Source: Emticicia agri
GTDB lineage: Bacteria > Bacteroidota > Bacteroidia > Cytophagales > Spirosomataceae
NCBI RefSeq assembly: GCF_004168285.1
Contig: NZ_SEWF01000001.1
Location: forward strand, 62,001-126,000
DNA: 64,000 bases
Reading direction: 5' to 3'
The notes under the pieces are model-generated. The model was not told the origin of the DNA. It searched no databases and saw nothing but the letters and a program-made list of their open reading frames with translations. The translations under genes were made by a program, and so were the position numbers. This document shows, piece by piece, positions 1 through 52,887 of the stretch; positions within the stretch are counted from its first letter, which is position 1, and every line of letters begins with the position of its first letter.

Positions 1-1658
1 TCGGCAGGAAAAATATTTCTTCCTGCTACTAATTCGAGGTCAAAGGTTGAAAGATATTGTTCATCTGCTGATTTTACATTTACTCTGAACACCTCGTCTT
101 CGGCACGATTGTCGAATTTTACTGAAGTACTCCAGTTTGAATTTGAAGCAGGTGCTCTGAAAAATAAAGAAGTCTTTTCAACCCCACTTAAAGCCGCAAA
201 CTGATTTTTAAGTGTTTTTTGCTTATTCAAATCTGTACCTGAAGCTATCGGAACAGTAACAATGGCATCTTTCTGAAAACCAAGGTCTGACTGTTGCGCG
301 TATTTCATCTGATTGGCAATAATCACCATGCCGATAATCAATACCTGAGAAATAGCAAACTGGGTAATAATAAGTGTACGTCGTGTGTTAAAACCACCTA
401 CATTTTGTTGAGATAGTTTTCCTTTAAGAGCGAGAACAGGCTGAAACCCGGCCAATATAAGACCGGGATAAGACCCAGAAAATAAAGTAACTACTACAAT
501 TAATGAGACAATGAAAAGCATTAGCTGCCAATCACTGACCAGATTAATACTGATTTGAGAACTGAACCAGGTGTTTACGTATGGCAGAGCCACATAAGCT
601 AATAGAATAGCAACCATAGCCCCAAGAATGCTTATCAGACTTGTTTCAGAGATAAATTGCCAGAAAAGCTGCATTCTTACACTACCCAATACTTTTCTTA
701 CACCTACTTCTTTCGAACGTTTTAATGCCTGTGCCGTAGCCAGATTAATGAAATTAACACAAGCAGTAATAATCAGGAATAATCCGATAAATGACAATAC
801 CCAGAGATTTTTCTTATCCATAGGGCCGCTATAACGGGCATCGAAGTGCATTTCAGCCAATGGCTGGAATTTATAATGGTGTACGTTTTTGGATGTTGGA
901 CGATATTTTTTTACATAAGCAGGCATCACTTTTTCAACCTGTGCAGGCGATATACCCGGACGAAGCAAGACAAAGCATTGCATCGAACTGAAAATACCTC
1001 CCCATGAATCATCGCTGGCAGCCCATTCATTATAAGATTTTAAAGTAGGATAAGAAGTATAGATTTCTGTTCTTCTGTCAGTATTGGCAGGCAGGTCTTT
1101 TAATATACCTGTAACTTTAAACTCAATGCGGTTATCTAATTTAAAAGTTTTGTTAATCGGATTTTCATCGCCAAAGTATTTTTTAGCAGCTTTTTCAGTC
1201 ATGATTGCCGTATTAGGTTCGCTCAAGACTGTTTTTTTGTCGCCTTGTAAAAGTGGATAGTTAAAGATTTCAAAAAATTCGGGTTCTGTGAAAGCTACGC
1301 CCTCTTCATCTTTAAATTTCTTGATTTCGTTGCCTTGTTTTACTGTAATCAACTGATCGTCGAAAGTACAGATTCGTGCCACTTTTTCACCAAAAGTATA
1401 ATCATTCCTGAATGCTTTGCCCAGTGGATTAGGTACACTGAAACTATAGCTGATGTTATCTCGGTGTTGCTCTGTAACGATGCGATAAATACGGTCAGAA
1501 TTGTTGTGGAAATTGTCGAAGCTCAGGTGGTGTTTTACCAATGCGAAAATAAGGATTCCGCAACTCATACTTAAGGCTAACCCCAAAACATTAATTGAAG
1601 CATAAACTTTATTTCGTTGCAGATTCCTTATTGCGATTTTTAAATAGTTCTTCAACAT
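1..1658 (-). CDS. MacB/FtsX-type ABC transporter permease (3' end cut by window edge)
   Basis: The reading frame starts with MLKNYLKIAIRNLQRNK at 1658 and stays open to the left edge, about 552 residues. Relatives in this window are about 800 residues, so the last third is missing only because the window ends. Seen in order: an N-terminal membrane segment, a MacB-type periplasmic core, the first FtsX membrane block with the cytoplasmic signature RSKEVGVRKVLG, then the start of the second periplasmic core (FDLELVAGRNIFP). By family it is an inner-membrane subunit that works with an ATPase and a periplasmic adaptor. It is most like the permease at 20569-22986 (inference from shared motifs). No ATPase lies next to it; it is divergent from the 1955 operon and has its own sigma-54-like promoter. 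The start fits a leader of about 25 nt. Confidence 0.9.
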   Translation of the reverse strand, partial: MLKNYLKIAIRNLQRNKVYASINVLGLALSMSCGILIFALVKHHLSFDNFHNNSDRIYRIVTEQHRDNISYSFSVPNPLGKAFRNDYTFGEKVARICTFDDQLITVKQGNEIKKFKDEEGVAFTEPEFFEIFNYPLLQGDKKTVLSEPNTAIMTEKAAKKYFGDENPINKTFKLDNRIEFKVTGILKDLPANTDRRTEIYTSYPTLKSYNEWAASDDSWGGIFSSMQCFVLLRPGISPAQVEKVMPAYVKKYRPTSKNVHHYKFQPLAEMHFDARYSGPMDKKNLWVLSFIGLFLIITACVNFINLATAQALKRSKEVGVRKVLGSVRMQLFWQFISETSLISILGAMVAILLAYVALPYVNTWFSSQISINLVSDWQLMLFIVSLIVVVTLFSGSYPGLILAGFQPVLALKGKLSQQNVGGFNTRRTLIITQFAISQVLIIGMVIIANQMKYAQQSDLGFQKDAIVTVPIASGTDLNKQKTLKNQFAALSGVEKTSLFFRAPASNSNWSTSVKFDNRAEDEVFRVNVKSADEQYLSTFDLELVAGRNIFPA

Positions 1659-1682: not shown

Positions 1683-1710
1683 ACATTCTAATTATCTAAA
1701 GCCATGCCAA
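1683..1710 (-). promoter_or_regulatory. Sigma-54-like promoter of the edge permease
   Basis: On the minus strand TTGGCATGGC (1701-1710) is followed by TTTAGATAAT (1691-1700). This gives a good -24 element (TGGCAT) with GG-N10-GA spacing; the usual -12 GC is GA here. The predicted start is near 1683, 25 nt before the ATG. The same layout occurs at 7899-7925 and 30362-30390. The role is inferred from the pattern. Confidence 0.6.
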
Positions 1711-1762
1711 AAACACAAAATATTGATAATCAATATATTACAACCAAACACTAAAATTATTC

Positions 1763-1954: not shown

Positions 1955-2554
1955 ATGCAATTAAAATCACCAGCTTCCGACTCAGTATTTGATAAAAAAT
2001 TCTGGGCAATCTGCCTTGTAACAGGGCAGTTTATGGTTATTCTCAGTTCCTTTTTTTGGAAAGATAACGGACGTCATTCAGTCAATGGCTCGGTTATGGT
2101 CTTTTTTTCAACCCTCTTTCTGGCAATGGGCATGATAGGTTTATTTGCTATTCTTAAATCTAAAATGCCTGTCTATTCACGTTTGGGGTTTCTATATGCT
2201 ATGTATGGAATTTTCGGAGGTGTAGGTTTTGCCTTTGAAGGGATTTATTCGGGTACACTCAATATTTCGGATAAAATCGGTTTAGAGGCATTTAAAGCCT
2301 TCCCGACACAAATGAATCTTTTGCTCTATTGGAGTGGCCCTGCGTTCCCGCTTTCGCTCCTTATTCTGGGTATAGTCTATATCCGTACTAAAGTAGTAAA
2401 ATGGTGGGTAGGTGTTTTATTATCTTTAGGAGGAATTACCTTCCCGATAAGCCGGATATTGCGCAACGAATGGCTCGCTCATTTGAATGATATGATTCTA
2501 TTTATACCTTTATGTATCATTGCTTATCAATTCTGGAACGCTACTGAACAATGA
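1955..2554 (+). CDS. Six-helix integral membrane protein, unknown function
   Basis: 199 residues with about six hydrophobic segments (roughly residues 17-35, 46-66, 75-98, 119-142, 148-165 and 175-192) and short loops. No enzymatic motif or family is recognised. Its stop overlaps the start of the LytS-type kinase by 4 bp (ATGA), so the two are translationally coupled and with the LytTR gene form a three-gene operon. This suggests a role with the kinase, for example as a sensory or accessory membrane subunit (inference). It is divergent from the edge permease across a 296-bp regulatory spacer. Confidence 0.75.
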   Translation: MQLKSPASDSVFDKKFWAICLVTGQFMVILSSFFWKDNGRHSVNGSVMVFFSTLFLAMGMIGLFAILKSKMPVYSRLGFLYAMYGIFGGVGFAFEGIYSGTLNISDKIGLEAFKAFPTQMNLLLYWSGPAFPLSLLILGIVYIRTKVVKWWVGVLLSLGGITFPISRILRNEWLAHLNDMILFIPLCIIAYQFWNATEQ

Positions 2555-3654
2555 GACCCTACAATTTTTTCAGTAATTCATTCTTTCAGTTTATTATCAT
2601 TACCCTTATCAATTTCGGATTAGGTGGAGGTTTGTTTCTGTTAGCTACCCTATTAGGTTATGTACCTGATGCAGATATGCCTCTGGGTGCCGCCAACGAC
2701 TTTATTTTTTATGATAACCTCTTAGAATCATTCATGGCGGTTGTAGTCATCTATTTGTATCGCAGATACACTTTTATCAGCAAACAAAAAACCTTTTTAA
2801 ATTACCTAATTTTAGGATTTCTGTTGTATTCAGGCAAAGGGTTATTAGTACTTTTGAGTGTTAAGGATATGCCTTTTAATTATACTGTACAAGATTTGTT
2901 CTTTAGATTGAATGGTTCTATTATTTTCAGGCTGAATCTGGTCTGGGCAGGGCTATTTGCTTACTATTGGGTTGAAAAAGAAAAAAATCGTGAACAACAT
3001 TTTTTGTTAAAAGAGTTAGAAGTAACGCAATTAAAAGAACTGAAAACCAAAGCTGATTTAGAGGCTTTACAGGCGAAAATCAACCCTCATTTTCTGTATA
3101 ATTCTTTAAACTCTATTGCCAATGCCATAGACGATGAGCCGCAGAAAGCCAAACAAATGACACTGCTATTGAGCAGGTTTTTCAGATTTACTACCAATGC
3201 ACAAAGTCAATATTACTGGACACTGAGCGAGGAAATAGATTTAGTGCGTACCTACTTATCTATTGAAAAAATCAGGTTTGGCAACAGGCTTGATTTCAGA
3301 CTTCCTGAACTTGGTTCAGAATTGTCCACCTGTCTGATTCCACGCTTTCTGATTCAGCCACTGATTGAAAATGCCATCAAGCATGGAATTTCAAAAATAG
3401 CGGAGAAAGGGATAATGGGCATACAGGTAAAGGCTACTCACGATTGGATAGAATTAAAGATTTATGACAATGGAATACCTTTTAGCTCTGGTTTTCAACA
3501 AGGGTATGGGTTGCGAAGTGTGAATGAAAAAATAAAATTATTAGGTGGAGAAAACGCTACTTTTGAGTTATATAATGAATCGTCTATGGGTATTGACAAT
3601 TATCATGATAATCCGGGTAAATATATTCTGATTCGTCTTCCTAAAAAATTATAG
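2551..3654 (+). CDS. LytS/YehU-type sensor histidine kinase (His_kinase family)
   Basis: 367 residues. The N-terminal half holds about four membrane segments (roughly 13-35, 52-72, 82-102 and 123-141), followed by a coiled linker (145-172). The H-box QAKINPHFLYNSLNSI places the phosphorylated histidine at H180. The ATPase part has the N-box LIENAIKHG (N274), a DNG (306-308) and the G-box GYGLRSV (318-324). Kinases of this family signal to LytTR regulators, and one follows at 3821. The gene overlaps the membrane protein upstream by 4 bp. Its stop codon touches a palindromic element that fills the gap to the regulator gene. The signal is unknown. Confidence 0.93.
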   Translation: MRPYNFFSNSFFQFIIITLINFGLGGGLFLLATLLGYVPDADMPLGAANDFIFYDNLLESFMAVVVIYLYRRYTFISKQKTFLNYLILGFLLYSGKGLLVLLSVKDMPFNYTVQDLFFRLNGSIIFRLNLVWAGLFAYYWVEKEKNREQHFLLKELEVTQLKELKTKADLEALQAKINPHFLYNSLNSIANAIDDEPQKAKQMTLLLSRFFRFTTNAQSQYYWTLSEEIDLVRTYLSIEKIRFGNRLDFRLPELGSELSTCLIPRFLIQPLIENAIKHGISKIAEKGIMGIQVKATHDWIELKIYDNGIPFSSGFQQGYGLRSVNEKIKLLGGENATFELYNESSMGIDNYHDNPGKYILIRLPKKL

Positions 3655-3814
3655 AGCCTGTTTAATTATTATCTTTCTGACCGAAAAGGTAAGATTTTTC
3701 AGTTAGACAAGATGTATTTTGCAGACGTAGCCGGCAGCTACGGCGAAAAAATACAGCGCAGTATAACTGGAAAAACTGCCTTTGCAGGTCGAATTATAAT
3801 ACTTAAACAGGCTC
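3654..3814. repeat. 161-bp palindromic MITE-like element inside the two-component operon
   Basis: The ends are a perfect 12-bp inverted repeat, GAGCCTGTTTAA at 3654-3665 and its complement at 3803-3814, with weaker pairing extending inward. A second arm pair is ACCGAAAAGG...TTTTTCAGTTA against TAACTGGAAAAA...CAGGTC, and the centre is the G/C-rich hairpin CGTAGC-cggca-GCTACG. The whole element can fold on itself. It starts on the last base of the kinase stop codon and ends 6 bp before the regulator ATG. There is no ORF. It could be a nonautonomous element or a structured operon spacer. Confidence 0.75.
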
Positions 3815-3820
3815 AAAAAA

Positions 3821-4576
3821 ATGAAAACAGTTATTGTAGAAGATGAAGAATTGGCTATTAAGGGTCTGAAAAATCTTTTATCAGATTATAGTGATTTTTT
3901 TGATGTTGTAGCTATAGCCCGCAATGGTGAGGAAGCCGTTGAAATGGTAGAAATACATAAGCCCGACCTTATTTTCTTGGATATTGAAATGCCTGTTTTC
4001 AATGGCTTTGAGGTTTTAAAAAGGCTAAGAACCATGCCTTTAGTTGTGTTTACCACTGCCTACGACGCCTTTGCAGTAAAAGCTTTTGAAGAAAACTCGG
4101 TAGATTATTTGTTGAAACCCATTGAAAAACAACGTTTTGACCTCACAGTAGAAAGATTGAAACAAAAGAAATCTGACCAACATACATCCATTAATTTTCA
4201 GAAATTTAGTTCTATTCTACATGCACTTGAAAACAAAAAAGAAATTCATTCGCTTACAGTTAAATCAGGCGAAAAGCTGCTCTTTATTTCTATTGCCGAA
4301 ATTGCCTGGTTTTTTGCCGAAGAACGTTATGTTTTTCTGAATACGCTGGATGGTAAACAATACCTGACCAACTATACGATTCAGAATCTTGAAGATATAT
4401 TGCCCAAAGAGTTTATCAGAGTAAGCCGCTCTGCTATTATTAATTCAAAACATATTTTAGAGGCGCAACGTTTTTTTACAGGTAATTACATGATTATTTT
4501 AAAAGACGCTAAAAAATCAAAAATAGAAACAGGCCGGAAATATGTTGATAATTTTGTCAGATTATTTGATTATTAG
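3821..4576 (+). CDS. LytTR-family response regulator
   Basis: 251 residues. The receiver domain (about 1-120) has acidic residues in VEDEE (7-9), the phospho-acceptor D54 in FLDIEMP and the lysine in LLKPIEK. The C-terminal LytTR DNA-binding domain (about 145-250) includes the family pattern IRVSRSAIINSKHI. By family it is phosphorylated by the LytS-type kinase encoded just upstream and binds promoter DNA as a dimer, usually at two short direct repeats. The target genes are not evident; the divergent permease and the lipoprotein downstream are candidates (inference). Confidence 0.94.
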   Translation: MKTVIVEDEELAIKGLKNLLSDYSDFFDVVAIARNGEEAVEMVEIHKPDLIFLDIEMPVFNGFEVLKRLRTMPLVVFTTAYDAFAVKAFEENSVDYLLKPIEKQRFDLTVERLKQKKSDQHTSINFQKFSSILHALENKKEIHSLTVKSGEKLLFISIAEIAWFFAEERYVFLNTLDGKQYLTNYTIQNLEDILPKEFIRVSRSAIINSKHILEAQRFFTGNYMIILKDAKKSKIETGRKYVDNFVRLFDY

Positions 4577-5354: not shown

Positions 5355-7751
5355 TTACTCCGTTTTCAAAGACTTCACCGGATTCATTAAGGCTGCCCGA
5401 ATAGCCTGCCCTCCTACCGTCAGCAATGCAATCATAATTGTAACTACTGCTGTAACAATAAAGATTGATGCCCCGATAGAAATACGGTAAGGATAATTTT
5501 TGAGCCATTCCTGTGCGGCATAAAATGCCAATGGGAAAGCAAAAATAAACGATAGGCTTACCAGTTTCAGAAAATCTTTAGAAAGTAACTGAACGATACT
5601 ACCTACTGATGCACCTAATACCTTGCGGATACCAATTTCTTTGGTACGTTTTTCTGCTGATAAAGTTGCCAGACCAAACAAACCTATGCAGGAAATAAAA
5701 ATAGTCAACACTGCACCAAACATCATGATTTGCTTCCATTTGGCTTCTGACTCGTATCTTTTCAGGTTCTCGGTCTCTACAAATTTATAGTCATAAGAGT
5801 TGATAGGGAACAGTTTTTTGAATGTCTTTTCAATATGTTTTAAACTCGCTACCTCGGTATTTGGCTTGATTTTGATATAAACCATTCCGTATTTATTGGT
5901 TGGTTTCATGGTAAAGAGCTGTGGTCCTATCTCCTGATTCAAGGTATTGAAATGATAATCTTTTACAACACCTATCACTTTATATTTTGTATTGTTATCA
6001 TACCAGAAATTCACTTCTTGCCCGAGAGGATTTTTCCAGCCTGCTTTTTTCACAAATGCCTCGTTAACGAGCACCGACTGTGTAGAATCAGAAGGAAAAT
6101 CAAGAGAGAAATTCCGACCTTTTAGCACAGGTATGTTTAAAAGCGGAATAAAAGTCGGGTTTACAGTTTCATAAGCAAAATCTATCTGTTTGTCTCCATT
6201 CACTCGTGCTATCGTACCCCAGCTTCCTCCATTTTTAGGAGCAACATCCACAATATTCGGGTTTTTCTTCAATTCATCCACAAATAAATGAGACTGGCTG
6301 TGTGTCAGTTGCCATTTATCAACCGTAATCAGGTTTTTATCAGTATAACCCAGTTCCTTCGTAGTCAGGTAATCGAATTGCGAGAAAATAGTAAGCGTGG
6401 CAATAATCAGAAAAGAAGCTAATCCGAACTGTACCACTACAAGGCTTTTCTGTAAGTAATTTTTTCCCGTCAGGTTGAATCGGCTGTATAAGGTTTTCAC
6501 CGGGTCATAGCCCGACAACACCAGCGCAGGATAAAACCCAGCTAAAAGACTTGTAATGAAGAAAAGTGCAATATATCCTGTTATTAGTTTGAGGTCAAAC
6601 AAATAAGAGAACGCCAATGATTTATTAGCCAATTGGTTAAAAGTAGGTAATACAATCTGCAAAATTACAACTGCCAATATAAATGCGATTGAACACAAGA
6701 CAAATGACTCTCCCAAAAACTGGAAAATCAATTGTTTTCTATCTCCCCCTACTACTTTTCTTACACCAATTTCTTTAGCACGTTTCAGCGAACGAGCTAC
6801 TGTAAGATTAATAAAATTGATACAGGCAATTAAAAGTATAAAGAGCGCAATGCCGGTCAGAATATAAGAAAAAGTAGGGTTACTGGCATCTGTTAGTCCA
6901 TTCTGCGCAGTAAACTGTGTGCTCAGGTGCATGTCTGTTAATGGCTGTAATCCATAGCGGGCCTTTTCTTTAATGTCATAATCTTTTGCTACCTTTACAA
7001 TACTCTCTTTTGCATCAGCTTCATATACTCTTTTCATTTTTGCCTCTGCTGCAATCGCATCAGCATTTGGCTGCAATACAACAAAAGTATTCAGGAAGAA
7101 ATTGAACCAGTTTTCATTATTCTGATATTCTTCGCTCTTCACAATAAAAGGCAGTAGAAAATCAAATTTTACCGAAGAGTTTTGTGGGGCTTTTTTAGCC
7201 ACACCCGTAATCAGATAAGGTACTAATTTATCTTCTTCTACAAAATCAATGGTTTTTCCTAATACGTCGGTTGTCTTGAAAAGTTTCTCAGCCATTTCGT
7301 CTGAAACCACAATAGATTTAGGTTTTTCAAGTGCCGTAGCCGGATTGCCACTAAGTAGCGGGAATGTAAACACCGAAAAGAAATTGGCATCTGTTTCCAA
7401 CATGCCATATCCTTTAATTTCGGTACCCTGACGTATATTTCTGAAATCACTTCTTACTCTTAAATAAGACTTAATTTCAGGTACTCCTTCCTTAAATTTA
7501 GGACCCTGAAAATAGCCCGTAGTTCCATCTTCCTGCTTCACACTCCCATCAGGATTAATCCATGAGGTTGTAACCCTGTAAATGTTCGGATTATTGATGT
7601 GAAAACGGTCATAGCTTACCTCGTCTTTGGTGTAAAGCATAATGAGCATGGCCGCAGCAAGGCCAATGCCCAATCCGGCAATGTTAATAAAACTGTAAAC
7701 CCTATTCCTGAAAAGGTTTCTTAATGCAATTTTTAAGTAGTTTTTGAACAT
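5355..7751 (-). CDS. MacB/FtsX-type ABC transporter permease (array member 2)
   Basis: 798 residues, starting MFKNYLKIALRNLFRNR. Layout: membrane segment about 20-40, periplasmic core about 45-245, first FtsX block about 290-420 with RAKEIGVRKVVGGDRKQ, a further membrane segment near 430, a second periplasmic core to about 660, and a second FtsX block with RTKEIGIRKVLGASVGSI. It ends NPVKSLKTE. It is the last gene of the leftward permease run and has its own sigma-54-like promoter and twin palindromes upstream, so it can probably be expressed apart from the genes before it. Its leader of about 148 nt consists mostly of a palindromic repeat. No ATPase domain is fused. Confidence 0.93.
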   Translation of the reverse strand: MFKNYLKIALRNLFRNRVYSFINIAGLGIGLAAAMLIMLYTKDEVSYDRFHINNPNIYRVTTSWINPDGSVKQEDGTTGYFQGPKFKEGVPEIKSYLRVRSDFRNIRQGTEIKGYGMLETDANFFSVFTFPLLSGNPATALEKPKSIVVSDEMAEKLFKTTDVLGKTIDFVEEDKLVPYLITGVAKKAPQNSSVKFDFLLPFIVKSEEYQNNENWFNFFLNTFVVLQPNADAIAAEAKMKRVYEADAKESIVKVAKDYDIKEKARYGLQPLTDMHLSTQFTAQNGLTDASNPTFSYILTGIALFILLIACINFINLTVARSLKRAKEIGVRKVVGGDRKQLIFQFLGESFVLCSIAFILAVVILQIVLPTFNQLANKSLAFSYLFDLKLITGYIALFFITSLLAGFYPALVLSGYDPVKTLYSRFNLTGKNYLQKSLVVVQFGLASFLIIATLTIFSQFDYLTTKELGYTDKNLITVDKWQLTHSQSHLFVDELKKNPNIVDVAPKNGGSWGTIARVNGDKQIDFAYETVNPTFIPLLNIPVLKGRNFSLDFPSDSTQSVLVNEAFVKKAGWKNPLGQEVNFWYDNNTKYKVIGVVKDYHFNTLNQEIGPQLFTMKPTNKYGMVYIKIKPNTEVASLKHIEKTFKKLFPINSYDYKFVETENLKRYESEAKWKQIMMFGAVLTIFISCIGLFGLATLSAEKRTKEIGIRKVLGASVGSIVQLLSKDFLKLVSLSFIFAFPLAFYAAQEWLKNYPYRISIGASIFIVTAVVTIMIALLTVGGQAIRAALMNPVKSLKTE

Positions 7752-7898: not shown

Positions 7899-7925
7899 GA
7901 AATTCTATTATCCAAAGCCATGCCA
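7899..7925 (-). promoter_or_regulatory. Sigma-54-like promoter of the permease starting at 7751
   Basis: On the minus strand TGTGGCATGGCTTTGGATAA has TGGCAT as the -24 element and the same GG-N10-GA spacing as the edge-permease promoter. The first 11 bases of the core, TGGCATGGCTT, are identical in the two. The predicted start is near 7899, giving a leader of about 148 nt. Confidence 0.6.
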
Positions 7926-7978
7926 CAACTACAACACACTCATTATCAATACATTACAACCAATTAACAATAAAATCC

Positions 7979-8016
7979 TGTCCGAAAACGGACAGGATTT
8001 TGTACAGTAACGGACA
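7979..8016. promoter_or_regulatory. Twin palindromic activator sites (site B)
   Basis: The perfect palindrome TGTCCGAAAACGGACA (7979-7994) is followed by TGTACAGTAACGGACA (8001-8016), centres 22 bp apart. They lie about 88 and 109 bp upstream of the predicted start at 7899, as at sites A and C. They sit in the 3' spacer of the permease gene at 8037, where no divergent gene exists, so they most likely serve leftward transcription. Confidence 0.65.
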
Positions 8017-8036: not shown

Positions 8037-10403
8037 CTACTCCGTCTTTAAACTCTTAACCGGATTTGCCAAAGCAGCCTTAATTGCCTGATAGCTGATA
8101 GTTAATAAAGCTATGATAACAGCCACTATACCTGTAGCGGCAAATATCCACCATTCGATAGATACCCGATAAGCAAAATCTTTCAGCCACGCTGCCATAA
8201 AATAATAGGCTATCGGTGCCGCTATGAGTATGGAAATCAGGACTAACTGCAGGAAATCTTTTGATAATAACGCAGTAATACTAAACACCGAGGCCCCTAA
8301 TACCTTGCGGATACCGATTTCTTTTGTACGTTGTTTGATTGAGAAAGTAGCCAACCCAAACAAGCCCAGACAAGATATAAATACAGCTAAAGCGGCAAAA
8401 GTCTTGGTAAGATTGCTGATGAGTTCTTCTCTCTCATAAAAACGGGCTACATCATCTTTGAAATAAGTGTATTCAAAAACATTATCAGGGTATAATTGCT
8501 CCCAAATTTTAGCAATATCCTGAACAGTATTAGGATTATATCCTTTTAACTGAATAGCCGCATAACGATACAAAGCACGTGCAGACATAATAACCGTTGG
8601 TTCAACACCTGTATAAAGGTCTGTATTGTTAAAATCAGCTACTACTCCTACAATGGTACCTGTTTTGCTTAAATCTCCTACCAATAATTTTTTATTCAGT
8701 ATCTCTTCCGGTGATTTCAACCCCAGATTTTTTACCATTTTTTCATTCACCATTAGCTCCCGCAAAGTATCAGAGGCTACAGGTTTTCGTCCGGCTACGA
8801 GTTTAATCCCATAAGTATCAATATAGGCTTCATCAGCCATTTTAGACCTTGCTACAAACTTTTCCCAGTCCCGGTTTTCGTACTTGATACTCCCTCCACT
8901 ACCTGTTTTTGAAGAAGGGGCTGTACGGAAAAACGAAACATTTTCAATATTGGCTTGTTGAAGCAGTTGGTTTTTAAAGGTAGTGAGTTTATCAACTTCC
9001 GGATTCGGAATGTTCACATGCAGAATCATGTCTTTTCTTAGTCCTAAATCCTTATTTTTCAGATAATTCAACTGTAAAACCACCAATAGAGAAACCGCAA
9101 TCAGAATACAGGCAATGCTGAATTGTGTTACTACCAAACCCTTTCTTAAGGTAAATCTCTTAGGCAGTTCTGTAATGTTTTTCAGTGCCTTTAACGGGTT
9201 AAAATTAGCAATAACCATTGCCGGATAAAACCCTGCAATAAATACAATAGTAATTAGTAACAGCACAAGAAAACCTATCAGTTTAAAATCTGATAAAAGC
9301 GTAATACTTAGTGGGGTCTTTAACCATTGGCTCAACATTGGAGCAGCTACGCTGGCTAATACAACTGCTAATACAATCGAAAATACAGCTACAACAGCCG
9401 TTTCGCTGATAAATTGCCAGAAAATCTGTCCCTGAGAACTGCCTAAAGTCTTTCTGACACCTACCTCTTTATAACGTTTGAACGATAAGGCTGTAGATAA
9501 ATTAATGAAATTAATACAGGCGATGATTACCATCAGCACACCAATGACTAATAATAGGTTAATGGTTGATTTTTTAATAGTTCCGCCATAATCAACATTA
9601 AAATGAATATCAGACAGGTTTTGCAGGTGATACTTAAATACCTCACTATCTGCTCCGTGGTATTTTTTTGAGAAAGCTGGCATTTGCTTTTCAAAACTCT
9701 CTTTCTGGTCTTTCGAACGGAGCATGACAAACGTTTCACGACTGCTTTCAATCCAACCCCAATCTTCATAGCCATAATTTGGCATAAGGGTTTTAATGGT
9801 TGGCAGAGAAACAAAAATATCAGTTTTAAAATCGGTATTGGCCGGATAGTCTTTAATGATACCAGCCACTACTACTTCCTGCTGATTTTCTAACTTCATG
9901 CTTTTGCCAATCGGATTCTGTATTCCGAAAAACTTTTCGGCATAGCGTTCTGTCAACACCACCTTATTAGGTTCATCTAATACTGCGGGTGTTCCGATTT
10001 CCCATGTAAAATCAAATATTCTGAAATAATCGGCATTGGTAAAAGCCGCTGATTCTTTTTCCAGGTATTTACGAACGCTCCTTTTATCAGTTACGGCAAT
10101 AGTTAAAGGTCTATGTGCCAGATAAGAGGTTTGCTCAATAGCAGGATACTCTTTTTTGAGTGTACTATGCAATATATAAGCACTGCCTTTCGAGCGTTCA
10201 ATCTGTCCATCACCTAAGTGCAAATCAACAACCGCCCGGTAGATTCTATCAGCATTTTTATGATAGGTATCCACGCTTAAATGGTATTTCACTAACTGAA
10301 AAACCAATATCCCTCCGGCCATACCCAAGGCAAGTCCGGCTATATTCAGAAAAGTAAAGAGTTTGTTTCTGTTTAAAACTCTGAGAGTAAATTTAAGCTT
10401 CAT
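8037..10403 (-). CDS. MacB/FtsX-type ABC transporter permease (array member 3)
   Basis: 788 residues. The N-terminus MKLKFTLRVLNRNKLFTF lacks the NYxKIAxR stretch that opens nearly every other member, though the following membrane segment LNIAGLALGMAGGILVF is typical. Two periplasmic cores alternate with two FtsX blocks (signatures RYKEVGVRKTLGSSQGQ and RTKEIGIRKVLGASVFSI). It ends NPVKSLKTE. The spacer before its start carries a G-rich palindrome of another type than the rest of the array. It probably belongs to the long transcript from the adaptor promoter; the next gene downstream has its own promoter. Confidence 0.93.
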   Translation of the reverse strand: MKLKFTLRVLNRNKLFTFLNIAGLALGMAGGILVFQLVKYHLSVDTYHKNADRIYRAVVDLHLGDGQIERSKGSAYILHSTLKKEYPAIEQTSYLAHRPLTIAVTDKRSVRKYLEKESAAFTNADYFRIFDFTWEIGTPAVLDEPNKVVLTERYAEKFFGIQNPIGKSMKLENQQEVVVAGIIKDYPANTDFKTDIFVSLPTIKTLMPNYGYEDWGWIESSRETFVMLRSKDQKESFEKQMPAFSKKYHGADSEVFKYHLQNLSDIHFNVDYGGTIKKSTINLLLVIGVLMVIIACINFINLSTALSFKRYKEVGVRKTLGSSQGQIFWQFISETAVVAVFSIVLAVVLASVAAPMLSQWLKTPLSITLLSDFKLIGFLVLLLITIVFIAGFYPAMVIANFNPLKALKNITELPKRFTLRKGLVVTQFSIACILIAVSLLVVLQLNYLKNKDLGLRKDMILHVNIPNPEVDKLTTFKNQLLQQANIENVSFFRTAPSSKTGSGGSIKYENRDWEKFVARSKMADEAYIDTYGIKLVAGRKPVASDTLRELMVNEKMVKNLGLKSPEEILNKKLLVGDLSKTGTIVGVVADFNNTDLYTGVEPTVIMSARALYRYAAIQLKGYNPNTVQDIAKIWEQLYPDNVFEYTYFKDDVARFYEREELISNLTKTFAALAVFISCLGLFGLATFSIKQRTKEIGIRKVLGASVFSITALLSKDFLQLVLISILIAAPIAYYFMAAWLKDFAYRVSIEWWIFAATGIVAVIIALLTISYQAIKAALANPVKSLKTE

Positions 10404-25705: not shown

Positions 25706-28129
25706 TTATTCCGACTTTAATGACCTGACAGGATTCATTAATGCGGCTCTGATAGACTGATAGCTTACAGTAAACAAAGCTATCAACAAGGCTACTACTC
25801 CTGCTAATCCGAAAACCCACCAGGTAATTTCGGTACGATAAGCAAAGTCCTGAATCCATTTATCCATCAGATAATAAGCCAATGGCGTAGCAATCAGAAT
25901 AGCAATCACCACTAATACAACAAACTCTCTTGAAAGCAAAGCTACCAGATTTGGCACACTTGCCCCTAATACTTTACGGATACCTATTTCTTTGGTGCGT
26001 TGTGCCATCATCATTAAAGCAATGGCAAATAAGCCCATACACGAAAGAATAATAGTAAGCACAGCGGCACTCATCACAATCTGCGACATTCTCTCTTCTT
26101 TTTTATACTGATTGTTGGTGTTTTCGTCTAAGAACGAAGGCATATACTCCGATTTCGGAGCAATTTCTTTGTAGGCTTTCCCAATCAGGTCAATGGTTGT
26201 TTTAGGTGTTTCAGGTGTAAGTTTTACGAATATGTAGTTGATACCGAAATCGCCCTGATAAAGGAAAGTTATTGCTTCAATTTTGTTTTTCAGAGACTCA
26301 AAATGATAATCTTTCACTACCCCAACAATGGTTTTACCGATACTATCACCCAAAGCTACTTTCTTGCCTATGGGGTCTTTATAGCCTAAGTGTTTCACCA
26401 TAGTTTCGTTCACGATACACGCCCGGTCTTTATCTGAAGGAAACTCACGTGAAAATTCTCTACCTGCCACTAAGGTAAGACCTAATGTTTTCACATAATC
26501 GTAATCGATACTTAAGCCATTAGTGCGATAGGTTTTCCCTTCCATTTCAAAGCTATAAACCGATTTGTAGCCTGAGCCATCTTTGCCTCTGCCAATGTTT
26601 ATATCAGCCCCGGTAATGCTTACAATCTGCGATTCATTGGCCAGTTTATTACGCATAAACTCTAATACCTTGCTGCCTTGTACTTCATTCCCCACAGGAA
26701 TACTGATTACCTGTGTCTGGTCAAAACCTAAAGGTTGGTTACGTAAATAATCTATCTGCTTCCAGATAATAAGCGTACAACTAATTAATAAAATAGCAAT
26801 GCTGAATTGAGCCACAATCAAAGCACTTCTGATACCTCCTGAGCGTGAGCTTACTTTTATTTTCCCTTTTAATACTTCTACCGTATTGAATTTAGCTACG
26901 GCTAAGGCCGGATACCCTCCGGCAATTAAGGTGATAATTAAAAAGCTGGCAAGCAATAGAATACCCACCATAGGGTTAAGAAGGTTATCAAAAGTAAGGT
27001 TGCTTCTGAATAAGGTGTTGTATTGAGGCATAAGCGTAGTAGCCAATGTACAACCTATACCAAACGCTACAATACAGATGATAAAGGCTTCGCCCCAGAA
27101 TTGCCCTACAATCTGGGCTTTCAATGCACCTAATGCTTTTCTCATGCCTACTTCTTTGGCACGGGTCATTGAACGGGCAATTGAAAGATTAATGAAGTTG
27201 ATGCAGGCAATTAATAATACTAAACCACTAATTACCAGCAATATATAAGGATAAGCAATGTCTATTGAGCGGCTACCGCCTGCTTGCTTATTAAAGTGCA
27301 TTTCAGGTAAAGGCAATAAGCGCAGACTGCGTACCTCTCCCCTTTCGTCAGGTTTTGCGCCGTCTTTCTTTAGTTGCTCAATACTGCCTTTGTAATATTT
27401 TTCGGTGAAAGATTTCAGGCGTTTTTCAAAACTCAGATAATCAACTTTATCAGCCAACTGCACATATACATCATGATAATTTGAATCCCATTTTTCTTTC
27501 GAGTCCTTGTATTCAGGATTATTCTCAAAACGCATCAACATATCATTCTCGATTGATGAATTTTTTGGGGCTTTTTCCATTACGCCTGTTACCACAAAAC
27601 TTTCAATTCTGCCACCAAAATTCAATTGCACAGTTTTACCTACAGGATCAGCCTTGTCAAATATCTTTTCTGCTACTTCTTCGTTCAGCACCACACTCCG
27701 TAAATCATTCAGGGCTACATCAGGATTTCCCTTCAACATTCTGAAAGAAAACATTTTCAGAAAATCAGCGTCCACATAGCGTATATCCTCATCAATCGTT
27801 TTCTCGCCTTGTACAATCTGCACGCCGCTGCTTACAATACGTGTAGCATATTTAATTTCAGCATTGAAATCACTTTTCAAGGCAGGAGTTACAGGCGTAG
27901 ACAAATTAGACTGATATTCAATTTTTTCAGGTTGATTGATTTTAAAGTAAACTCTGAAAATGCGGTCTTTATTATCCTGAAAATCATCGTACGTAAACTC
28001 AAAATAAGCTGTCAGAAACAGCAGAATAGCACAACCAAAAGCAATAGATAGCCCAACAATATTGATTGAGGTATATGCTTTATTTTTCCAGAGATTACGA
28101 AGAGCGATTTTGAAATAATTTTTTAACAT
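25706..28129 (-). CDS. MacB/FtsX-type ABC transporter permease (array member 10)
   Basis: 807 residues, MLKNYFKIALRNLWKNK to NPVRSLKSE. It is the first permease after the ATPase gene, 155 bp downstream of it. Signatures are RAKEVGMRKALGALKAQ and RTKEIGIRKVLGASVPNL. The full duplicated layout is present: membrane segment, periplasmic core, three-helix FtsX block, membrane segment, second core, second FtsX block. The spacer upstream (28130-28284) has neither a CCCCTAAAGGGG element nor a twin-palindrome site, so transcription most likely comes from the adaptor promoter. Confidence 0.93.
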   Translation of the reverse strand: MLKNYFKIALRNLWKNKAYTSINIVGLSIAFGCAILLFLTAYFEFTYDDFQDNKDRIFRVYFKINQPEKIEYQSNLSTPVTPALKSDFNAEIKYATRIVSSGVQIVQGEKTIDEDIRYVDADFLKMFSFRMLKGNPDVALNDLRSVVLNEEVAEKIFDKADPVGKTVQLNFGGRIESFVVTGVMEKAPKNSSIENDMLMRFENNPEYKDSKEKWDSNYHDVYVQLADKVDYLSFEKRLKSFTEKYYKGSIEQLKKDGAKPDERGEVRSLRLLPLPEMHFNKQAGGSRSIDIAYPYILLVISGLVLLIACINFINLSIARSMTRAKEVGMRKALGALKAQIVGQFWGEAFIICIVAFGIGCTLATTLMPQYNTLFRSNLTFDNLLNPMVGILLLASFLIITLIAGGYPALAVAKFNTVEVLKGKIKVSSRSGGIRSALIVAQFSIAILLISCTLIIWKQIDYLRNQPLGFDQTQVISIPVGNEVQGSKVLEFMRNKLANESQIVSITGADINIGRGKDGSGYKSVYSFEMEGKTYRTNGLSIDYDYVKTLGLTLVAGREFSREFPSDKDRACIVNETMVKHLGYKDPIGKKVALGDSIGKTIVGVVKDYHFESLKNKIEAITFLYQGDFGINYIFVKLTPETPKTTIDLIGKAYKEIAPKSEYMPSFLDENTNNQYKKEERMSQIVMSAAVLTIILSCMGLFAIALMMMAQRTKEIGIRKVLGASVPNLVALLSREFVVLVVIAILIATPLAYYLMDKWIQDFAYRTEITWWVFGLAGVVALLIALFTVSYQSIRAALMNPVRSLKSE

Positions 28130-28284: not shown

Positions 28285-28962
28285 CTATACGTGGAAATTC
28301 TCTGTTACTACCTTACCATCGAACAGGTTGATGATTCTGTGTGAGAAACCTGCATCATAAGGTGAGTGCGTAACCATGATAATAGTAGTACCTTCGTTGT
28401 TTAGTTCCTGAAGCAATTTCATTACTTCTTCACCATTGGTAGAGTCAAGGTTACCGGTAGGCTCATCGGCAAGAATTAGCTTTGGTTTGGCTACTACCGC
28501 ACGTGCAATGGCTACACGTTGTTGCTGACCACCCGATAATTGTTGCGGAAAGTGATTGCGGCGGTGCATGATGTTCATTCTCTCTAATACTTCTTCTACC
28601 TTTTTCTTACGTTCGGTAGCAGGTGTTTTCAAGTATAAAAGAGGAAGTTCTACGTTTTCGAAAACTGTTAACTCATCAATCAGATTAAAACTCTGGAAAA
28701 TGAAACCAATATTGCCCTTGCGGTGTGCTGCACGTTCTCTCTCACTCAATTTGGCTACTTCTACGCCATAGAAATCATAGCTTCCTTCAGATGGGTTATC
28801 TAACAAGCCCATGATGTTGAGCAAGGTTGATTTACCACATCCTGACGGACCCATAATGGCAACGAATTCACCATCTTTGATATTCATATCAATACCATTT
28901 AGGGCGGTAGTTTCTACCTCTTCGGTAGTGAACACTTTTTGAAGATTAGATACTTTTATCAT
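28285..28962 (-). CDS. ABC transporter ATPase, LolD/MacB-N type
   Basis: 225 residues with a complete nucleotide-binding domain: Walker [10 protein letters not shown] (38-46), Q-loop Q90 in FIFQSFNL, signature LSGGQQQR (142-149), Walker [14 protein letters not shown] (162-174) and the switch histidine H199. Length and motifs match the LolD/MacB ATPase group, which powers FtsX-type permeases acting as mechanical exporters rather than channels. It is the only ATPase in the window and follows the adaptor gene by 56 bp. It presumably serves all or most of the permeases (inference). It has no membrane segment. Confidence 0.96.
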
Positions 28963-29018: not shown

Positions 29019-30269
29019 TTATTTTAAATCCAATACTTCGTTGTCTCCAAAGTTTTCATAAGAGGATGTAATCACTTTATCTCCTACCTCTAAGCCTTCT
29101 AACACTTCAAAATATTCAGGGTTTTTACGACCTAAGGTGATTTTGCGTTTTACGGCTTTGCCACCTGATTTATCTAATACATATACCCAGTTTCCACCTG
29201 TATCAGAGAAGAATCCACCTACCGGTAAAAGTACTGCTTTAGTAGCTTTACCCAACTCCAGACGAATAGGAGAAGACTGCCCTCTTTTAATGCCCTCAGG
29301 TACGGTTTTCGAGAAAACCATATCTACCTGGAAACGACCGTTACGAATTTCAGGATAAATCTTGGTAATTTCTAAAGGATATTCTTTTCCACCAAATTCA
29401 AACGTACCACTTAGACCTGCAAAAATTCTTCCGTTATAGTGTTCATCTATATCTACACGCAATTTGAAACCATCTAAGTCATCAATCTGACCAATGTTTT
29501 GTCCCTGGCTGATATTTGAACCTACCTCTACATCTATTGACGATAACAGACCCGATACAGGAGCTTTTACCACAAGGTTCTCAAGCGTTTCGCGCCATAA
29601 CTGTACGTTTCTCTGCGTACGTTCCAAAGTACCTTCCAATTGTTTAATCTGCATGGCAGCATTTTCTTCCTGATATCTTTGAGATTCTAAGTCAATTTCC
29701 TTCTGACTTACCAGCTTCTCATAATCACGCTTTGCTTTCAGATAATCAGCCTCAGGAATTACTTTGTCGTTATACAATTTCTTGTTTCTTTCGTATAAGT
29801 CCTTAGCCTGATCTGTTAAAAAGTCTAAGTCAGACATATTCTTGCGAATCGTAAACTTCTCTACTTTCAGACGTTGGCGTGTATTCTGTAAGTCGTTTAC
29901 TAATCGGCTTGCTTCTGTTTCTGACTGTAAGAAATTCAGCTTTAAGTTCTGATTCTCTAATTTTAATATTACCTGACCTTGTTTCACTATATTCCCGCCA
30001 TCAACTACTTTTTCTTTCACATATCCTCCTACGATGGCATCCAAGCGAATAATTCTCAAAGGCAATACCACTCCTGTAACCACGATAAACTCATCGAATG
30101 TACCATTGGTTACCTGTGAAATAGTCATTTTATCTTTTTCGGCATTCAGTGTCGAGCGTCTATCCGCAAAAAGCAAGCTGTAAGCTGCAAATGAGGCAAA
30201 TAATACACCACCGATCGTTAATAAGATTCGCTGTCTACTCCAGAATTTCTTTTTTATCTGCTTGTCCAT
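29019..30269 (-). CDS. Membrane-fusion (HlyD/MacA-like) periplasmic adaptor
   Basis: 416 residues. A single N-terminal membrane anchor (about 13-33) follows a basic start (MDKQIKKKFWSRQR). After it come a first half-lipoyl piece (GGYVKEKVVDGGNIVKQGQ), a long alpha-helical hairpin rich in Glu, Lys, Arg and Gln (about 110-225), the second half-lipoyl piece (VVKAPVSGLLSSIDVEVG), a beta-barrel and a C-terminal membrane-proximal domain. Such adaptors link inner-membrane ABC permeases to an outer-membrane exit duct. No TolC-like gene is seen in the window. It is the first gene of the exporter operon, with a sigma-54-like promoter and twin palindromes upstream. Confidence 0.94.
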   Translation of the reverse strand: MDKQIKKKFWSRQRILLTIGGVLFASFAAYSLLFADRRSTLNAEKDKMTISQVTNGTFDEFIVVTGVVLPLRIIRLDAIVGGYVKEKVVDGGNIVKQGQVILKLENQNLKLNFLQSETEASRLVNDLQNTRQRLKVEKFTIRKNMSDLDFLTDQAKDLYERNKKLYNDKVIPEADYLKAKRDYEKLVSQKEIDLESQRYQEENAAMQIKQLEGTLERTQRNVQLWRETLENLVVKAPVSGLLSSIDVEVGSNISQGQNIGQIDDLDGFKLRVDIDEHYNGRIFAGLSGTFEFGGKEYPLEITKIYPEIRNGRFQVDMVFSKTVPEGIKRGQSSPIRLELGKATKAVLLPVGGFFSDTGGNWVYVLDKSGGKAVKRKITLGRKNPEYFEVLEGLEVGDKVITSSYENFGDNEVLDLK

Positions 30270-30361: not shown

Positions 30362-30390
30362 TTCAATTATAATTCACAATGTGTGCCAAA
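30362..30390 (-). promoter_or_regulatory. Sigma-54-like promoter of the adaptor operon
   Basis: On the minus strand TTTGGCACACATTGTGAATT has a consensus -24 element, TGGCAC, and the same GG-N10-GA spacing as the two promoters at 1683 and 7899. The predicted start is near 30362, giving a leader of about 93 nt before the adaptor ATG. Confidence 0.6.
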
Positions 30391-30442
30391 TATATTAAAC
30401 AATTGACTATCAGTAACTTACAAAATAAATACCTTCTAAAAT

Positions 30443-30479
30443 TGTCCGTTTTCGGACAACACTTGTACGTTCACGGACG
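30443..30479. promoter_or_regulatory. Twin palindromic activator sites (site C)
   Basis: The perfect palindrome TGTCCGTTTTCGGACA (30443-30458) is followed by TGTACGTTCACGGACG (30464-30479), centres 21 bp apart. They lie about 88 and 109 bp upstream of the adaptor operon start. They also lie 160-200 bp upstream of the activator gene at 30639, so the same sites could allow autoregulation (inference). Confidence 0.65.
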
Positions 30480-30638: not shown

Positions 30639-31991
30639 ATGTCAAAGCTTTTAATAATTGATGATGATGTAGATGTATTAAGTGCAGCTAAGTTATTTTT
30701 AAAAAGACATTTTGGCCAAGTAGATATTGAAAAGAACCCCGAGCGGATTCCCTTTTTAGTTTCTAACGGCAATTACGATGTCATATTATTAGATATGAAT
30801 TTCACACGGGATGTGAATACAGGTAAAGAAGGCTTTGAATGGCTCGACCGTATTTTAGATATTGACCCAAAGGCCTCGGTGGTATTATTTACTGCCTATG
30901 GCGATGTAGAAATGGCTGTGCGGGCAATTAAGGTGGGTGCATCAGATTTTGTATTGAAACCCTGGGAAAATGAAAAGCTCTTGGCTACTATGCAGTCGGC
31001 CTTAGAAATAAGAGAATTACGTACAGGTAAAACGCCTACCGTAAAACGTAAAACTGAAAGCAAAGTTGAGATTATAGGCAAAAGCCCTGCCATGCAGAAA
31101 ATCTTTGAAACGATTGAGAGAGTAGCTGCTACCGATGCCAATATTCTGATATTAGGCGAAAACGGAACAGGAAAAGACCTGATAGCAAGAGCCATTCACG
31201 AAAAATCTGACCGGGCAGATAAACCATTTGTACATGCCGATTTGGGTTCCATTTCAGAAACTCTTTTTGAAAGCGAACTTTTCGGGCACGTGAAAGGGGC
31301 TTTTACCGATGCCCGAGAAGACCGTGTTGGTCGTTTTGAAGAAGCGAACGAAGGCACCATTTTTTTAGACGAAATAGGTAATATTCCACTGCCCTTGCAA
31401 GCTAAACTATTGACAGTACTCCAGAATAGAAGTGTAACCAAAGTAGGCTCAGGGAAAGCGAAGAATATTGATGTACGTCTGATTTGTGCTACCAACGAGC
31501 CTATTCACGCCCGGGTAGCGCAACGTACTTTCCGTCAGGATTTACTGTATCGAATCAATACCATCGAAGTCAAATTGCCCCCATTAAGAGAGCGTATTGA
31601 AGATATTGTAACGCTGGCTGAGCATTTTCTGAAGATGTACCGTAAAAAATATAACCGTCCGGTTAGTACTATCAGTGCAGCATTAATCAAACAATTGCAA
31701 CGCTATAACTGGCCCGGGAACGTGCGTGAGCTACAACATGCCATTGAACGTGCTGTTATTTTATGTCAGGGTAATGTATTGCAACCTGAAGACTTCTTTG
31801 AAGGACAACCCTTTGAAAAACAACTGGATTCAGCACCCTCTTTCGACCAGACATTTCAGTTAGAAGAAATGGAAAAAATGCTGATTATCAAGACTTTGAA
31901 GAAATTCAATGGTAATATCACCGAAGCCGCCCGTGAAATGGGTCTGACACGGCAGGCATTGTATCGGAGGGTGGAGAAATACGGGATTTGA
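30639..31991 (+). CDS. Sigma-54-dependent response regulator (NtrC/AtoC type)
   Basis: 450 residues. Receiver domain 1-120 with D8-D10, phospho-acceptor D52, T85 and K107. AAA+ domain with Walker A GENGTGKD (173-180), sigma-54 contact loop GAFTDA (220-225; the classic form is GAFTGA), Walker B IFLDEIG (241-247) and an arginine-rich region near 300-320. The C-terminal Fis-type helix-turn-helix is at about 410-448 (ITEAAREMGLTRQALYRRV). It should activate sigma-54 promoters when phosphorylated. Being divergent from the exporter operon, whose promoter has the matching architecture, makes the exporter its likely target (inference). No histidine kinase gene adjoins it. A palindromic spacer follows its stop. 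Confidence 0.96.
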   Translation: MSKLLIIDDDVDVLSAAKLFLKRHFGQVDIEKNPERIPFLVSNGNYDVILLDMNFTRDVNTGKEGFEWLDRILDIDPKASVVLFTAYGDVEMAVRAIKVGASDFVLKPWENEKLLATMQSALEIRELRTGKTPTVKRKTESKVEIIGKSPAMQKIFETIERVAATDANILILGENGTGKDLIARAIHEKSDRADKPFVHADLGSISETLFESELFGHVKGAFTDAREDRVGRFEEANEGTIFLDEIGNIPLPLQAKLLTVLQNRSVTKVGSGKAKNIDVRLICATNEPIHARVAQRTFRQDLLYRINTIEVKLPPLRERIEDIVTLAEHFLKMYRKKYNRPVSTISAALIKQLQRYNWPGNVRELQHAIERAVILCQGNVLQPEDFFEGQPFEKQLDSAPSFDQTFQLEEMEKMLIIKTLKKFNGNITEAAREMGLTRQALYRRVEKYGI

Positions 31992-52602: not shown

Positions 52603-52887
52603 GTGACTAAAGCAGAAGTAATTTCAGCTATTGCCGACAAGACTGGCGTGGACAAAGCAAGTGTATCATCTACACTTGAGGCATTTTTTGACACAGTAAA
52701 AGACACATTGGCACAAGGCGATGCGGTCTATGTTAGAGGTTTCGGAAGTTTTGTAAACAAAAGAAGAGCTGCTAAAAAAGCTCGTAACATTTCTGCTAAA
52801 ACTACGGTAACCGTTCCTGCTCACTCTGTTCCGGGCTTTAAACCAGCCAAAGAATTTACAGAACAGGTAAAAGCAAACGTGAAATAA
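52603..52887 (+). CDS. HU-family DNA-binding protein
   Basis: 94 residues, opening MTKAEVISAIADKTGVDKAS, initiated by GTG at 52603. The HU/IHF fold is clear: VYVRGFGSFVNKRRAAKKAR, then the DNA-grasping arm NISAKTTVTVPAHSVPGFKP. The family bends and compacts DNA as a dimer. The proline-containing arm VPAHSVPGFKP differs from the E. coli IPAAKVPAF form. A strong promoter lies 144 bp upstream, and a hairpin terminator follows. Confidence 0.97.
   Translation: MTKAEVISAIADKTGVDKASVSSTLEAFFDTVKDTLAQGDAVYVRGFGSFVNKRRAAKKARNISAKTTVTVPAHSVPGFKPAKEFTEQVKANVK

Follow-up and report, generated by a model that had tools for sequence, protein, structure and literature searches.

Twin palindromes and sigma-54-like promoters before scattered ABC exporter genes in Emticicia agri: a candidate regulon of a divergent NtrC-type regulator

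Genes and promoters of the window

The window, that is the whole 64-kb stretch of Emticicia agri DNA that was analysed, carries ABC exporter genes next to the gene of a transcriptional regulator. On the minus strand, a HlyD/MacA-like periplasmic adaptor (29019-30269; Pfam PF13437; NCBIfam TIGR01730 above cut-off, NF038010 below) is followed by a MacB/LolD-like ABC ATPase (28285-28962; PF00005; none above NCBIfam cut-off among the 25 of 189 matches listed) and by a same-strand run of eight duplicated MacB/FtsX permeases (8037-28129). Within this run, the permeases at 8037-10403 and 25706-28129 were assigned by profile scans and the other six by MacB_PCD hits and BLAST. A second promoter stands before a duplicated permease at 5355-7751 (minus strand; profile scans, BLAST) and a third before 3-1658 (minus strand), where a run of 11 permeases begins that extends beyond the window (C1:35281-63658). 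Between two permease runs, window 1955-4576 encodes a 199-aa protein without Pfam match, a LytS-type kinase and a LytTR response regulator, divergent from the third promoter. An Rfam search of the window returned nothing at gathering thresholds.

Divergent from the adaptor operon, the plus-strand gene at 30639-31991 encodes an NtrC-type response regulator (PF00072, PF00158, PF25601, PF02954), the predicted binder of the palindromes described below. It is composed of a receiver with its aspartate in LLDMNF, a Sigma54_activat AAA+ domain (PF00158, E 1.7e-67; Walker motifs GENGTGK and GTIFLDEIG) and a Fis-type helix-turn-helix (HTH), while no NCBIfam model reaches its cut-off among the 25 of 73 matches listed. 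Its sigma-54 contact loop is GAFTDA, not GAFTGA (GSFTDA in some orthologues), and FTDA is conserved at the 90% level in the orthologue rows. In the HTH, the 77 orthologue rows follow NGNIT..A.E.GL.R..LYRR.EKY at 95%, and the paralogues, of which the genome has five, differ. In the parts of these papers available to us, GAFTGA is called invariant in sigma-54 activators (PMC12316311), the same Gly-to-Asp change renders NorR constitutively active with enhancer DNA still needed for the higher oligomer (PMC2941729), and a survey places GAFTDA among the loop variants expected to keep activity (PMC4641369).

The adaptor-ATPase-permease run (8037-30269) is headed by two palindromes: a perfect proximal one at 30443-30458 and a distal one at 30464-30479, reading TGTCCGTTTTCGGACA and TGTACGTTCACGGACG. 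Downstream of them lies the -24/-12 element TGGCACACATTGTGA (30374-30388, minus strand), its GG 55 bp off the proximal palindrome. In the same way, the second promoter has a perfect proximal palindrome at 7979-7994, a distal one at 8001-8016 and the element TGGCATGGCTTTGGA (7911-7925, minus strand; GG at 54 bp), and the third a proximal palindrome at 1763-1778, a distal one at 1784-1799 and the element TGGCATGGCTTTAGA (1695-1709, minus strand; GG at 54 bp). All three elements have the form GG-N10-GA. With the GG set as -25/-24, transcription would start at 30362, 7899 and 1683, and the palindrome centres would then lie 88.5/109.5, 87.5/109.5 and 87.5/108.5 bp upstream, respectively.

An earlier note on this DNA had described the pair and the GG-N10-GA element upstream of the adaptor operon, where both were indeed located, and had put the centres at about 88 and 109 bp before the start, which agrees with the computed 87.5-88.5 and 108.5-109.5 bp at all three promoters. 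It had also stated that the same pair and spacing recur at the other two places: pairs are present there, but their sequences are merely similar, and the spacing is 22 bp at 7979/8001 versus 21 bp at 30443/30464 and 1763/1784. The 1763/1784 pair was also considered as a control site for the divergent 199-aa/LytS/LytTR genes, an idea dropped because the best element toward them scores 7.9 versus 12.4.

Thirteen promoters in the genome and the genes behind them

Across the genome (6.65 Mb, 174 contigs), palindrome and -24/-12 element were found together at 13 promoters, so that the regulon of three promoters proposed in the earlier note was an understatement. In addition to the three in the window, they are located at C1:35135, C1:231093, C2:196845, C9:36296, C11:35439, C14:49958, C24:55511, C36:24256, C45:19626 and C52:5001. 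When the element was sought at 46-75 bp from the proximal palindrome, its GG was found at 53-56 bp in 12 of the 13 and at 65 bp in one. The paired dyad-symmetric sites expected 80-150 bp upstream are present, except at C45, where no distal palindrome is recognised; that of C1:231093 is weak. The -24 box is TGG in 12 promoters and AGG at C1:35135, and C45 has no G at -12. This G is conserved in 96% of a weighted set of 75 sequences (12 own, 63 from relatives), whereas the last base of the element is free.

Single palindromes are not enriched, since those with at most one mismatch occur at 14 places in the genome and at 14 in the reversed control. It is the pair that stands out. A second palindrome-like site was found 20-23 bp away at 12 of the 14 real places (real places alone were examined), and the strict twin pattern matched at 7 places (10 strand hits), with no match in the reversed control. 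A site model, the use of which had also been proposed, was built from the activator loci of other genomes (75 loci, including four congeners) and applied to 387,737 bases of chosen stretches of the genome. It recovered 11 of the 13 promoters and missed C1:231093 and C45. This composite scan of pair plus element returned 15 rows scoring 47.6-59.4, namely the 11 promoters and four of those pairs read the opposite way with a weak element, versus one control row at 24.8. Finally, a whole-genome pattern (proximal palindrome with TGGNA at 51-67 bp) matched 13 places versus one in the control; 11 of these are known promoters, W1763 and C1:35135 were missed, and C5:222842 and C33:50126 are taken as chance matches. 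Two sigma-54 genes were observed in the genome, at C49:7260-7739 and C30:23124-23600, the latter directly adjoining another NtrC-type regulator gene.

By our own count, 36 of the 42 large duplicated (ADOP-like) ABC permeases are arranged behind the 13 promoters in same-strand runs, which would represent operons. For the other six, no site was found either within 450 bp or in the stretches scanned by the site model. The unit on C24 comprises an ATPase, the second of the set, followed by an outer-membrane efflux protein (OEP), a TolC-type channel. With a threshold of E 1e-30, eight such ATPases were detected in the genome, two of them within the set. The duplicated permeases are about 740-900 aa long and devoid of an ATPase, and within the set 36 permeases face two ATPases. 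Four scanned permeases align over their full length with the ADOP ('duplicated orphan permease') model TIGR03434 (E 4.8e-86 to 6.2e-90), but their 289.6-302.4 bits fall below its curated cut-off of 622.3, and they are therefore called ADOP-like and not filed as ADOP members. In a scanned permease led by a PadR gene, the NCBIfam permease prefix domain 2 was present. Another prefix-domain-like permease (C14:46786-49484, locus L021) is apparently split into frames of 739 and 174 aa, which may reflect gene breakage or an error in the sequence. That the same pair precedes scattered pump genes at a near-fixed distance, in related bacteria too, suggests that one regulator switches them on jointly.

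Pairs, distances and regulators in related genomes

To compare named loci, the 80 top matches to the activator were taken, which belong to Emticicia, Runella, Larkinella, Chitinophaga, Ferruginibacter, Fulvivirga, Dyadobacter and others; many are from Chitinophaga, L154 and L162 come from one assembly, and counts across relatives are not independent because relatives share ancestry. The nearest activators among these 80 are from Emticicia strains (98% and 94% identical). A pair was found upstream of the activator in 75 of the 80 loci (74 by another score). In these 75, the best -24/-12-like element, in a search from about 20 to 155 bp on the side opposite the activator, was at 53-56 bp in 63, at 65-66 bp in 10 and elsewhere in two. 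Wherever a well-matched adaptor lies beside the activator, pair and element are both present (72/72); in the other eight loci the adaptor was undetected or cut off. The five loci without pair (L118, L127, L141, L173 and L179) have no detected adaptor, and the sequences of L127, L173 and L179 end just upstream of the activator. The earlier note had called for a comparison of the sites in relatives, and these 72 loci lend comparative support both to its view that a single activator would control all three units of the window and to its predicted combination of NtrC-type activator, twin enhancer and sigma-54-like promoter.

In three Chitinophaga loci with 65-bp promoters (L113, L158 and L161), the -24 box is preceded at about 11 bp by a second TGGCA (tggcatggctTGGCA), which looks like the trace of a promoter shift via tandem duplication of the -24 region. 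A kinase gene adjoins the activator in 68 of the 80 named loci, and not in the four Emticicia loci. In E. agri, an orthologue of this neighbouring kinase was found apart from its partner as an orphan NtrB-like kinase (C23:42851-44170, L184), 57% identical to the kinase of L108.

Among 150 genomes of the family, the strict pair pattern occurs in 70 (E. agri included) versus one for the control, and the activator was detected at E 1e-130 in 115. The pair is present in 67 of these 115 versus three of the other 35 (Fisher p 7e-8, kinship uncorrected). Of the three, G106 has an activator about 60% identical, in G089 the activator is split over a contig end, and in G067 (71% complete) no activator was detected. 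Within the genus, the pair occurs in 8/8 genomes with the activator (E. agri included) and in 0/3 without it. Upstream regions were examined in 47 of the 48 activator-bearing genomes lacking the strict pair, G060 being left out because its activator begins at a contig end. An adaptor lies within about 2 kb in 25 of the 47, and a looser pair, mostly of TGTTCG type, was found in 23 of these 25. At 22 of the 25 loci, the pair is accompanied by an element at 54-56 bp (5) or 66 bp (17), and at L331 by a best element at 75 bp; L312 and L320 have a neighbouring adaptor (38-40% identical) but no pair. In the 22 of 47 without detected adaptor, a weak pair was seen in one.

These distributions bear on whether another NtrC-type regulator binds the palindromes, the window regulator being a mere neighbour. 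One candidate among the five paralogues is encoded at C28:51475-59925 (L064), where a second MacAB-like set has its own NtrC-type regulator (44-45% identical, likewise GAFTDA) and kinase, and G067 has the pair and a C28-type gene. However, no TGTCCG pair was found at the C28 locus itself, the C28-type genes of G001 and G037 are not accompanied by pairs, and the pairs adjoin orthologues of the window regulator in Chitinophaga, Fulvivirga, Dyadobacter and others, so that we consider this explanation very unlikely; the C28 set probably belongs to a paralogous system that uses another site. G037 has an orthologue of the 45%-identical paralogue and no closer activator relative. In G001 (L212), a 319-aa receiver-less frame is 57% identical to the activator, yet no strict pair was found, and this frame is perhaps a decaying or rewired copy.

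What the pairs precede was followed in a census of 30 loci and 64 further places outside E. agri, or 94 places among the matches listed (93 in relatives, one in E. agri), the downstream side being that with the better element. The first gene is an adaptor at 17 of these places, and an ATPase followed by an OEP gene at four. A permease occurs within the first three frames at 72 of the 94 listed places, often after a PadR gene. Exporter genes follow 93 of the 94, and the remaining one is a PadR gene at a contig end. The distance from GG to proximal palindrome is 53-56 bp at 66 of the 94 listed places, 63-67 bp at 25 and different at three, with none at 57-62 bp. In shuffled DNA, the best element fell in the two classes in 73 of 940 cases versus 91 of the 94 listed real places. 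The proximal palindrome is also stronger than the distal one at the listed places (mean score 20.1 versus 16.8). With twin sites about two helical turns apart and promoters in steps of about one turn, this is what one would expect were activator and polymerase obliged to contact each other on one particular face of the DNA. At L260 and L276, the best element is at 149 bp on the permease side, about nine turns past 54, and a slightly weaker one is at 54 bp on the opposite side; at L272 it is at 123 bp, with a weaker one at 65. The elements of L102 and L103 are at 53 and 54 bp in the census, and another choice of pair on the first 30 loci gave 103 and 92 bp.

A PadR gene is the first in many units and dimeric repressors fit perfect dyads, which brings up the idea that the palindromes are repressor operators, for example of the PadR of prefix-domain permease units, next to coincidental -24/-12 look-alikes. 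We judge it slightly less probable still than binding by a paralogue: the pair is found without a leading PadR gene at the adaptor, the ATPase+OEP and many of the permease units, and a good element at near-fixed distance, in two classes about one turn apart, argues against such operators. Least probable of all is that upstream DNA was merely copied along with the duplicating permeases, a large paralogous family in which W1763 and W7979 have spacer sequence in common, since most positions between palindrome and -24 carry little information while the sites are retained, the same layout precedes genes as different as adaptor, ATPase+OEP and PadR, and the gap at 57-62 bp speaks against mere copying. 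Mobile or copied DNA was dropped as an explanation.

Two triplets are conspicuous in the DNA that separates enhancer and -24, one A-rich (-30 to -28 from TGG) and one T-rich (-10 to -8). IHF-like elements were found in the window at 30396-30408 (minus strand, 8/9 consensus positions) in the adaptor operon promoter, at 7944-7956 (plus strand, 9/9; reverse orientation relative to the promoter) in the second and at 1716-1728 (minus strand, 9/9) in the third. Full 9/9 matches occur in 5 of the 13 own promoters versus 0.06 expected, and 8-9/9 matches in 8 of 13 versus about 2. In relatives, 8-9/9 matches were found in 19 of 73 promoters versus about 6.4 expected, the 73 being the 75 activator loci minus two without an element at 50-70 bp. 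In E. agri, all eight matches stand 19-20 bp before TGG or, when inverted, 31-32 bp before it. Among those in relatives, nine of 19 share these positions, two are at 30 bp and eight are scattered. In two 66-bp loci, a 9/9 match 30 bp before TGG indicates that its distance to the palindrome was kept while the promoter moved by one turn. Given that the control was a mononucleotide shuffle, a DNA-bend site is no more than suggested by these data. A candidate protein for it is encoded at window 52603-52887, an HU/IHF-family member; PF00216 finds no further member in the genome beyond one weak match.

A possible common switch for a modular exporter

Taking these comparisons together, it is very probable that the product of 30639-31991, the NtrC-type regulator, occupies the twin sites and activates sigma-54 polymerase at all 13 promoters. 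In the proposed mechanism, a histidine kinase (the C23 one in E. agri, the one next door in most relatives) would phosphorylate the regulator, two dimers of which would occupy the TGTCCG-N4-CGGACA twin palindromes about two helical turns apart. The regulator would then assemble its AAA+ ring and the intervening DNA would bend, possibly with an IHF/HU-like protein, allowing the ring to open sigma-54 RNA polymerase at the -24/-12 element, the GG of which is separated from the proximal palindrome by 53-56 or 63-67 bp. A single signal would thereby raise jointly, from 13 promoters, the adaptor, two ATPases, the TolC-type channel and up to 36 duplicated permeases.

This mechanism, a paired enhancer with sigma-54, is of a textbook kind. 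NtrC, ZraR and AtoC likewise have receiver, AAA+ and Fis-type HTH in this order, paired palindromes 80-110 bp upstream and a -24/-12 element. The system described here differs from them in its GAFTDA loop and in an enhancer position that, at the promoters examined, is near-fixed in steps of about one turn, whereas classical enhancers are usually said to tolerate being moved. What seems to be new is the candidate regulon, which would link the permeases with adaptor, ATPases and channel. The earlier note missed the genome-wide set, the outer-membrane channel and the helical-turn rule.

Promoter matrices have already been used to predict that sigma-54 controls FtsX-like permeases (COG0577) of Bacteroidia (PMC12316311), which belong to the same permease superfamily and would depend on the same sigma factor as those described here. 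The part of that paper available to us names no activator or enhancer site for these permeases; both are proposed here, and adaptor, ATPase and channel join the permeases in the set, beyond that prediction. Many ADOP-type permease genes have been described in two Dyadobacter species in the accessible part of another study (PMC11573002), while the accessible part of Francke et al. 2011 (PMC3162934) contains no mention of Bacteroidetes, macB or ABC transport. A search of the open-licence literature by site sequence yielded nothing related, and no account of the regulon was found there, in line with the earlier impression that the site had not been described.

At the level of genes, the set resembles MacAB-TolC exporters, with adaptor, ATPase, MacB/FtsX permease and OEP channel. 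Unlike in MacAB-TolC, the parts are scattered and the duplicated permeases come without ATPase, 36 to 2. It is conceivable, with a likelihood that we place just short of even, that the products form a modular exporter in which 36 interchangeable duplicated permeases, encoded on eight contigs, all work with a common adaptor, one or two ATPases and a single TolC-type channel, their supply being matched by a single phospho-switch and a helix-phased code of twin palindrome, bend element and -24/-12 promoter.

For Bacteroidota, these results provide a concrete candidate regulon, with a site model, for a little-studied branch of regulators. The existence of two distance classes, separated by about one turn of DNA, may also serve as a natural experiment on how strictly an enhancer-bound activator has to face the polymerase. 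The most useful new lead concerns which ATPase, adaptor and channel serve the duplicated permeases that have no ATPase of their own, for which we know of no earlier lead. If the modular exporter is real, it would provide the motor so far missing from a large family of permeases annotated as of unknown function.
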